DNA of 64,000 bases, from positions 62,001 through 126,000 of the forward strand of contig NZ_JAHDTH010000001.1 of NCBI RefSeq assembly GCF_018531445.1. The letters run 5' to 3'. The DNA comes from Pseudonocardia lacus (GTDB lineage Bacteria > Actinomycetota > Actinomycetes > Mycobacteriales > Pseudonocardiaceae). Position 1 is the stretch's first letter. Each line of letters opens with the position of its first letter. The notes under the pieces were generated by a model that was not told the DNA's origin, did no database searches, and saw only the letters and a program-made list of their open reading frames with translations. This document shows, in pieces, positions 48,183-50,602 of this stretch. A program made the translations under genes and the position numbers.

Positions 48183-48334
48183 CACCGCGACCCGCGATGG
48201 CGCCGGTCGGACCATTGCCCGTCGGACAGCAAATGCTGCCGCTGCCGGCAGGCATCACATCCGCCATCGACCCTGTCCGGCGACCCCGCGCCGTGATGTG
48301 CTCTCCCCGCACGATTCGATTCATGGGGGGAACA

Positions 48335-50602
48335 ATGGGACTTGTCACCACCGATGCCGGGCGGCGTTGGCCGCGCGGCGTCATTCCGTTCGAGATCGAC
48401 GAGATCGCGTTCCCGGAGGGGACGCCGCAGCGCCGGCTCGTCGAGGCCGGAATCACGCTGTGGAACAACGGGCAGCAGTTCGTCCGGCTGGTGCCGCGCG
48501 ACGGGCAGAGCGACCACGTGCAGTTCCGGGAGAGCCCGACGGACTTCGCGAGCCCGGTCGGGCGCCAGGGCGGTCGCCAGCCGCTGTGGTGCGACGTCGG
48601 CTCCAGCAACGAGGTGCGCATCCCCGGCCAGCAGAGCAAGGCGACCCCCGCGCTCGCCGCGTTCGGGGGCCAGCTGCACATCGTGCACCTCGGCGACGCC
48701 TCGAACGACATCTGGCACTCGGTGTTCGACGGCAGCACCTGGACCGCGAACGTGACGATCCCGGATCAGCAGAGCAAGGCGACCCCGGCCCTCGCCGCAT
48801 TCGGGGGCGTGCTGCACATGGTGCACCTGGGAAACACCTCGAACGACATCTGGCACTCGGTTTTCGATGGCACCGCGTGGTCGTCGAACGTGCGGATTCC
48901 CGGGCAGCAGAGCAAGGCCGCGCCGGCGCTGGCGGTGCTGGACGACCGGCTGCACATGGTGCACCTCGGGGACGGCTCGAACGACATCTGGCACTCGGTT
49001 TTCGACGGCAGCGGGTGGTCGTCGAACGTGCGGATTCCCGGGCAGCAGAGCAAGGCCGCGCCGGCGCTGGCGGTGCTGGACGACCGGCTGCACATGGTGC
49101 ACCTCGGGGACGGCTCGAACGACATCTGGCACTCGGTTCTCGACGGCACCGGGTGGACGCCGAACGTGAAGGTCCCCGACCAGCGCAGCTGGGCCACTCC
49201 GGGCCTGGCCGCGCTGAACGGCCGGCTGCACATGGTGCACCGGAGCGAGAGCTCCAGCGCCCTGTGGCACTCCACCTGCGACGGCACCACCTGGACCGCC
49301 GCCGTCGAGGTGGCGGGGGAGAAGAGTTCCGCCGGTCCGGCGCTGGCCGCGTTCGCCGGCCGCGTGCACACGGTGCACCTGGGCGAGAGCTCGACCGACC
49401 TGTGGCACTCCCGCGTCGACCAGGGCGTGTCCGGCTCGGCGACCACGATCGTGCACGAGATCGGGCACGCGGCCGGGCTGCACCACGAGCAGTGCCGCGA
49501 GGACCGCGACGAGTTCGTCCTGGTCGACGAGGACCGCATCAGGGACGGGTACGCGAAGGCCTACCGCAAGCACACCGACGACGCCGACGACAGCGGCCCC
49601 TACGACTACGGCTCGGCCATGCACTACTCGGCGATCGGCTTCGCGAAGGACCCGAGCCTGCCGGTCATGTCGCCCGGCCCGGCGACCGGCGGGTTCCTCA
49701 GCTCGTTCCCGAACATCGGCCAGAGCTTCGGCCTGTCCGCGGGCGACGGCGAGACGCTCTACGCGCTCTACCCGGCCTGGACCGCCACCACCCGCACCGT
49801 CGGGAAGACCAGCCGGCTGGCCCCGGCCGTAGCGGCGCTCGACGACCAACTGCACCTCGTGCACGTCGGCGAGGGTGGCAACCAGCTCTGGCACGCCCGG
49901 TTCGACGGCTCGACCTGGACCGTCGACGTGGTCGTCCCCGGCCAGTCCAGCAAGGCCACCCCGGCGCTCGCGGCGTTCGGCGGCGAGCTGCACATGGTCC
50001 ACCTCGGCGACACCGAGAACGACCTGTGGCACTCCCGGCTCACCGCCTCCGGGTGGACGCCGAACGTGCGCATCCCCGGGCAGCAGAGCCGGGCCACGCC
50101 CGCGCTGGCCGAGTTCGACGGGGCGCTGCACCTGGTCCACCTGGGCGACGACTCGACCACCCTGTGGCACTCGTCGACCACCGACGGCAGCACGTGGACG
50201 CCGAACGTGCGGATCGAGGACCGGGCCAGCGGCGCGCCGCCGGCGCTGGCCGCCCTCCCGGGCGGGCTGCACATGGTGCACGTGGCGGAATCATCGACCG
50301 AGCTGCGGCACTCGGTGTTCGACGGCGCCGGGTGGTCGCCCGCCGAGCGCATCCCCCACCAGAGCACCCGGGCAGCGCCGGCCCTCGCGGCCTACCGGGG
50401 CCGGCTGCACCTGGTCCACCTCGGGGAGAGCGCGACCACCGTGTGGCACTCGGTCTTCGACGGCAGGTGGCGGCCGAACGTGCCGATCGAGGGGCACTCC
50501 AGCACGACCCCGGTGGCGCTGGCCGCGCACCTGGACCGGCTCGCGATGCTGCACCGCGGGGCGGGCTCGGCGAACCTCTGGATGAGCCACCACGACCGCT
50601 GA
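48335..50602 (+). CDS. Astacin-type zinc metalloprotease interrupted by six propeller-like repeats, with six more at the C-terminus
   Basis: A 755-residue protein. Residues 1-91 are the N-terminal lobe of an astacin domain (RRWPRGVIPFEID, then VGRQGGRQPLWC near 76-87). Residues about 92-362 are six 46-residue repeats of the form VRIPGQQSKAxPALA, LHMVHLGD, IWHSVFDG, W. The astacin domain then resumes with ATTIVHEIGHAAGLHHEQ near 374, DRDEFV, the Met-turn SAMHY near 428 and IGQSFGLSAGD. Residues about 486-755 are six further repeats. Zinc ligands and Met-turn are intact. No signal peptide or propeptide is visible from ATG 48335 or ATG 48323. Six blades per set fits two six-bladed beta-propellers, perhaps lectin-like; that fold call is inference. 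Confidence 0.85.
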   Translation: MGLVTTDAGRRWPRGVIPFEIDEIAFPEGTPQRRLVEAGITLWNNGQQFVRLVPRDGQSDHVQFRESPTDFASPVGRQGGRQPLWCDVGSSNEVRIPGQQSKATPALAAFGGQLHIVHLGDASNDIWHSVFDGSTWTANVTIPDQQSKATPALAAFGGVLHMVHLGNTSNDIWHSVFDGTAWSSNVRIPGQQSKAAPALAVLDDRLHMVHLGDGSNDIWHSVFDGSGWSSNVRIPGQQSKAAPALAVLDDRLHMVHLGDGSNDIWHSVLDGTGWTPNVKVPDQRSWATPGLAALNGRLHMVHRSESSSALWHSTCDGTTWTAAVEVAGEKSSAGPALAAFAGRVHTVHLGESSTDLWHSRVDQGVSGSATTIVHEIGHAAGLHHEQCREDRDEFVLVDEDRIRDGYAKAYRKHTDDADDSGPYDYGSAMHYSAIGFAKDPSLPVMSPGPATGGFLSSFPNIGQSFGLSAGDGETLYALYPAWTATTRTVGKTSRLAPAVAALDDQLHLVHVGEGGNQLWHARFDGSTWTVDVVVPGQSSKATPALAAFGGELHMVHLGDTENDLWHSRLTASGWTPNVRIPGQQSRATPALAEFDGALHLVHLGDDSTTLWHSSTTDGSTWTPNVRIEDRASGAPPALAALPGGLHMVHVAESSTELRHSVFDGAGWSPAERIPHQSTRAAPALAAYRGRLHLVHLGESATTVWHSVFDGRWRPNVPIEGHSSTTPVALAAHLDRLAMLHRGAGSANLWMSHHDR
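48877..49138 (+). repeat. 138-bp coding tandem duplication (blades 3 and 4)
   Basis: Bases 48877-49000 and 49015-49138 are identical over 124 bp at a period of 138 bp, exactly one 46-residue blade. The other blades differ at many bases. This pair is therefore a recent duplication or conversion inside the first repeat set of the astacin-like gene. Confidence 0.93.

Follow-up and report, generated by a model that had tools for sequence, protein, structure and literature searches.

The window analyzed here, a 64,000-nucleotide (nt) stretch of contig NZ_JAHDTH010000001.1 from Pseudonocardia lacus, encodes an astacin-type zinc protease, P0001, whose catalytic domain is interrupted by a predicted six-bladed propeller. 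The open reading frame (ORF; 48335–50602, plus strand) comprises 755 codons. With moderate confidence, we read P0001 as a bacterial astacin that carries one whole propeller in the loop between the last N-subdomain strand and the active-site helix and a second propeller of the same kind at its C-terminus, with recruitment as the proposed role of the twin propellers. Judged by profile matches and the predicted structure, with a second case, built around a different module, in support, the arrangement is a genuine insertion of a domain into an astacin.

The break is apparent when P0001 is set beside its relatives. Its N-terminal lobe ends with GRQGGRQPLWC at residue 86, while HEIGHAAGLHHEQ starts at residue 374, giving a GxxGG-to-HExxH spacing of 298 residues compared with 20–23 in the 71 of 90 relatives that could be measured by pattern; the remaining 19, which fall outside the spacing pattern, were judged contiguous by eye. 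The gap is occupied by six repeats (anchors 114–344, 46-residue spacing), and a further six follow the Met-turn lobe (anchors 506–736, spacing 45–47). Pfam Astacin (PF01400) matches P0001 in two stretches with 92 bits against a cut-off of 22.5. A bacterial-astacin profile built from 68 contiguous sequences (88 before removal of near-duplicates) aligns its positions 13–95 with residues 2–86 (30.7 bits) and its positions 98–213 with residues 366–488 (116.1 bits), stopping at position 95 and resuming at 98. The zinc motif HExxHxxGxxHE at 374–385 and the SxMHY Met-turn at 427–431 place P0001 in the astacin family, and the residues of HEIGHAAGLHHEQ fall in invariant columns of the relatives' alignment; H374, H378, H384, E375, and E385 presumably have the roles that family knowledge assigns to them. 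One of the cysteine pair that usually precedes HExxH is gone and C86 is kept; the pair is missing in 6 of the 90 relatives.

Structure prediction points to the same architecture. In the full-length model, each set of repeats can be matched along its entire length to closed propellers of six blades. After removal of the insert, residues 3–486 superpose on astacin over 196 of 202 residues and residues 3–483 on BMP-1 over 199 of 201, the first aligned residue being 3 in P0001 and 1 in the astacin and BMP-1 chains. In this first model, the insertion point lies after the last N-subdomain strand (81–87) and before the active-site helix (369–379). Computation thus shows residues 1–89 and 364–486 as one predicted astacin fold built from two separated segments. 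The initial annotation, made from the DNA letters without database searches, had described the ORF and its translation, the end of the N-terminal lobe and the displaced helix, the two sets of six repeats, and the intact zinc ligands and SAMHY, all of which are borne out. Two checks that it proposed, namely closure of the repeat sets with union of the lobes in a predicted structure and a PF01400 search allowing split matches, came out in its favor. It had further supposed that homologues lacking the N-terminal lobe and having a separate, intact protease domain would speak against a split; P0001 has the N-terminal lobe, and neither a second match to its protein nor a second Astacin match was found in the same genome.

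A second split astacin is encoded at locus L172 (genome G971), the host of which is probably a Streptomyces, a placement based on a 662-residue ORF that reads alike at L142 and L034. Two astacin-profile rows lie 1.07 kb apart in one 948-codon frame there, and the protein, P0002, is 894 amino acids (aa) long and starts at an ATG preceded by GAGG at a distance of 8 nt. The bacterial-astacin profile matches P0002 at positions 7–98 and 99–209 in stretches 357 residues apart, Pfam finds Astacin in two stretches together with FG-GAP_3, and both HELGHAIGLHHE and SIMHY are preserved. The gap holds seven repeats, with another seven after the C-terminal lobe. P0002 thus resembles P0001 in its break point, its filled slot with a C-terminal module, its lack of a prosegment, and its GLHHE, but differs in having seven repeats per module, of the FG-GAP_3 kind. 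Both proteins share the same start, a Trp at residue 12, and the same 5-residue lengthening of the N-terminal lobe; their GLHHE occurs in none of the 90 relatives, 86 of which have GLWHE. The layout, for which the initial annotation knew no parallel, is therefore not unique: the new locus holds an astacin split in the same place by a different module that is again doubled C-terminally. Among the 124 profile-matching sequences, this kind of split is confined to P0001 and P0002, the latter represented twice (L156 and L172); the weak metzincins L134 and L137 show two profile stretches just 14 residues apart.

In each protein, the inserted and terminal modules are each other's closest kin. Among the ORFs of the fetched loci, the P0001 insert and C-terminal module are mutual best matches from end to end, at 52.8% over 271 residues; the next matches by score reach 36.9% and 33.3%, and none listed exceeds 40.5%. 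The two P0002 modules match at 53.4% over 348 residues, with others at 23.9–27.6%. P0001 modules are absent from the listed best matches of the P0002 modules, and vice versa. Blades 3 and 4 of the P0001 insert are 98% identical in protein and 99% in DNA over the 40 codons compared, a near-identity that reflects either a very recent tandem duplication or, possibly, a miscount in short-read assembly. Repeats of the P0001 kind also occur at the C-terminus of a CAP-domain protein (L008:904-2289) and, in the same genus, after a different metzincin (HEMGHALGLTHSG) at L003 (G037), L004 (G032), and L005 (G010). The P0001 propellers share their predicted six-bladed fold with the fucose lectins of Aleuria aurantia and Aspergillus fumigatus (AAL and AFL), from which they differ in sequence (12–15% identity); Pfam Fungal_lectin has no match listed for P0001 or either module, and the likeness to sialidases is a fold match alone.

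The rarity of the insertion was gauged against a broad set of astacins. A scan of genome_contigs confirmed 294 relatives, of which the best 80 were kept and 214 were not. The scan patterns were [WH]HEQ[SC]R[EA]D or DD[VSF]G[PA]YDY; L172 carries neither, so the scan is blind to its kind, and because its patterns could not find L172, it does not bound the number of split astacins. Of the 80 loci, 79 entered the ORF count, and L088, which has Ser for Gly in the zinc motif, was left out but appears contiguous by eye. Joined with the loci obtained from search_genomes, the relatives' set holds 91 ORFs with HExxHxxGxxHE, the window's included, several being one gene fetched twice (Lentzea). All 90 other ORFs are contiguous in their printed motif strips. 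Matches to the profile in a single place were also counted by eye: the 126 genomes of the Archangium phylum gave at least 58 near-full-profile rows (E at or below 3.2e-28), the 386 of the window's family at least 14 (two with an internal stop), the 343 of the Streptomyces-type genus at least 12 (one from position 26 only, one with an internal stop), and the 394 of the class at least 3. These genome sets overlap in part, and the candidates scored per genome were at most 25, 8, and 3 for the phylum, family, and genus, respectively, and 2 and 21 in the other searches. Genomes of the Archangium phylum are rich in astacins, with up to several strong rows in a single genome. C-terminal repeat modules are frequent in contiguous relatives, measuring 273–274 aa in L033, L037, and L039. 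A terminal module by itself is commonplace; what is rare is the insertion. Modules of other kinds, several of them propeller-like by eye, occur in L034, L055, L101, L106, L110, and L111; Pfam was run on L034 and L055 among these and found DUF346 in seven stretches of the L034 module.

P0001 also departs from its relatives at the N-terminus. A prosegment (PP) motif with Asp or Cys at the expected distance is present in 86 of 90 relatives (73 Asp, 13 Cys). The four exceptions are L049, L093, and the pair L017 and L089, which represent a single gene containing an in-frame stop; in all four, the upstream frame is cut or different. No such motif was found in the 864-residue open frame of P0001 or in the whole open frame of P0002. 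According to PMC9629494, the FEGDI motif carries the zinc-blocking aspartate of astacin prosegments, and the mature N-terminus is anchored to the family glutamate. The initial annotation was thus right to find the missing propeptide odd. It was mistaken about the missing signal peptide, whose absence is the norm among these bacterial relatives: a crude hydrophobicity test detects one in 3 to 6 of 86, depending on the threshold. The 13 Cys-bearing motifs are FEGC-type in L045, L053, L058, L064, L065, L071, L082, L085, L090, L091, and L100 and take the form YQGC in L029 and L030. From their sequences, they look like a natural change from an aspartate to a cysteine switch within the same motif.

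These observations suggest a conditional account of P0001. The C-terminal propeller may have come first, as in many relatives, with a whole copy then placed in the loop. The enzyme would be made directly in a competent form that needs no activating cleavage, and a common partner, repeated or glycosylated, would be bound by its two propellers from both sides of the cleft. By analogy with the gelatinases, recruitment rather than zymogen activation might then limit what P0001 cuts. To judge by the different module in P0002, the slot may serve as a docking site for binding modules in general. Several points weigh against this account. The two P0001 models have predicted template modeling (pTM) scores of 0.50 and 0.64 and do not settle where the propeller sits with respect to the cleft. 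In the second model, blade 6 is broken and the predicted local distance difference test (pLDDT) falls below 50 at junctions 80–94 and 354–366, and both models were fed alignments made from contiguous astacins, which steers the fold. A full-length match to P0001 was found in just 1 of 62 genomes of the genus, the window's own. Finally, the propeller could instead serve stability or dimerization.

The absence of a prosegment invites a different role for the insert, as a latency device that takes the place of the lost prosegment by covering the cleft or deforming it as long as no ligand is bound. The motif that 86 of the other 90 carry is missing from both split astacins, whose chains begin at the mature N-terminus, and the insert joins the catalytic domain next to the active-site helix. 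We nevertheless consider this role unlikely: the modeled propeller is not firmly positioned over the cleft, confidence at the junctions is low, and two cases, possibly of one descent, make a weak correlation. In gelatinases, moreover, the insert recruits substrate while the propeptide still gives latency. The rarity of P0001 in its genus, its long branches in both lobe trees, and its missing cysteine could also befit a decaying protease, inactive as a peptidase, whose propellers work as a lectin-like binder. That P0001 retains the three zinc ligands, the catalytic Glu, the Met-turn Met and Tyr, and the other invariant columns, in an intact frame with normal codon use, makes decay improbable, and the cysteine pair is absent from several other astacins as well. 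An assembly error that spliced repeats or a propeller gene into a normal astacin gene deserves hardly any credence. The assembly has 501 contigs, and the near-identity of two blades leaves the blade count possibly misassembled, but the genome has no other protein match or astacin, the frame and the GC content at third codon positions (GC3) are uniform, and a second genome has the same break point with another module.

Whether P0001 and L172 descend from one split ancestor or represent independent insertions at one permissive loop is more evenly balanced, and we lean slightly away from independence. In its favor, the module kinds, repeat numbers (6+6 vs 7+7), and hosts differ, and the two stretches, when compared, have no neighbor gene in common. 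The FastTree phylogeny of the C-terminal lobe joins P0001 with L056 (support 0.83) rather than with L172, and at the 5% and 10% limits P0001 has more rare residues in common with L056 (7 and 12) than with L172 (6 and 9). At the 3% limit, P0001 is tied, with 5 shared with each, whereas the best partner of L172 is P0001 (5 rare residues shared; next best 2). The common GLHHE, start, and N-lobe lengthening also argue for one ancestor. A sister grouping is not rejected for the C-terminal lobe (approximately unbiased test, p-AU 0.79), and the N-lobe tree shows this grouping, with support 0 and a long-branch warning; the lobe trees in general are weakly supported.

The features of the P0001 gene are collected in Table 1. 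Its GC3 is 0.966, with four segments at 0.92–1.00, compared with 0.88–0.99 for nine other window genes. The neighboring genes encode an NmrA-like protein, a TetR protein, a transglycosylase-associated protein, and a P-type ATPase, none of which hints at the function of P0001. We assume a soil habitat for the host, taken from its kin.

Table 1. Elements of the P0001 gene, in window coordinates
Feature	Position	Strand	Remarks
Possible ribosome-binding site GGGGGG	48325..48330	+	4 nt upstream of ATG 48335; putative, read in the sequence
Astacin N-terminal lobe, residues 1–89	48335..48601	+	Begins at mature N-terminus, without prosegment; relatives' profile positions 13–95
Inserted six-bladed propeller (predicted), residues 90–363	48602..49423	+	Six 46-residue repeats
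Insert blades 3 and 4, putative recent tandem duplication	48881..49156	+	98% aa, 99% nt
Astacin C-terminal lobe, residues 364–486	49424..49792	+	Active-site helix, Met-turn, C-terminal helix; profile 98–213; PF01400 78–186
Zinc motif HEIGHAAGLHHEQ	49454..49492	+	Presumed zinc ligands H374, H378, H384; catalytic E375; family glutamate E385
Met-turn SAMHY, M429 and Y431	49613..49627	+	Residues 427–431; invariant columns of relatives' alignment
C-terminal six-bladed propeller (predicted), residues 487–755, and stop codon	49793..50602	+	

Because two cases carry different modules, the loop can be seen as a permissive site, which points to it as an insertion site for large domains that may be useful in engineering targeted proteases. 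The loss of the prosegment in both split astacins raises the question of how a zymogen-free astacin is restrained, and we expect P0001 to surprise metzincin specialists. A bolder proposal, which we regard as rather doubtful, places P0001 and P0002 in a separate class of bacterial astacins not described before, where a pair of like propellers, one set into the catalytic domain next to the active-site helix and one terminal, would take over control from the prosegment. The loop would be an exchangeable slot that has accepted different propeller families in different lineages, the slot and terminal copies being kept alike.

Among known astacins, close comparisons include LegP-like proteins. L033 from Archangium, L037 from Fibrella, L039 from a Gemmatimonadetes metagenome-assembled genome, L055 from Mycobacterium, L106 from Nocardia, and L034 from Streptomyces have a whole domain that can be aligned with P0001 and a C-terminal module, the module folds being judged by eye except for Pfam DUF346 in L034. 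Unlike P0001, they keep the catalytic domain in one piece and carry an FEGD-bearing prosegment. P0001 scores 115.2 bits against the LegP equivalog NF045530, which has a cut-off of 300, and is not classed as LegP. LegP of Legionella is type II secreted and type IV translocated, as reported in PMC6617341. Myroilysin is likewise a bacterial astacin and has solved structures, but its domain is contiguous; PMC9629494 describes a zymogen that relies on a cysteine switch and lacks the PP motif.

The nearest known design to the P0001 layout is that of the gelatinases MMP-2 and MMP-9, which the layout resembles although membership does not hold: Peptidase_M10 scores 13.9 bits on P0001 (cut-off 24), and no fibronectin type II match is listed. 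In gelatinases, the insert position after the fifth strand lies directly before the active-site helix. PMC10702220 places the three fibronectin type II domains of MMP-2 and MMP-9 behind the fifth strand, and PMC7290392 describes these domains as binding gelatin and the C-terminal hemopexin domain as a propeller. Gelatinases and P0001 thus have in common a metzincin catalytic domain, binding modules after the fifth strand, and a C-terminal propeller. As matrixins, however, gelatinases possess a propeptide, fill the slot with three fibronectin type II modules, and end in a four-bladed hemopexin domain, whereas P0001 has an astacin fold, a whole six-bladed propeller in the slot that matches the terminal one in kind, and no propeptide. 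By this comparison, bacterial astacins seem to have arrived at a layout akin to that of the gelatinases, using entire propellers where the latter use small modules.
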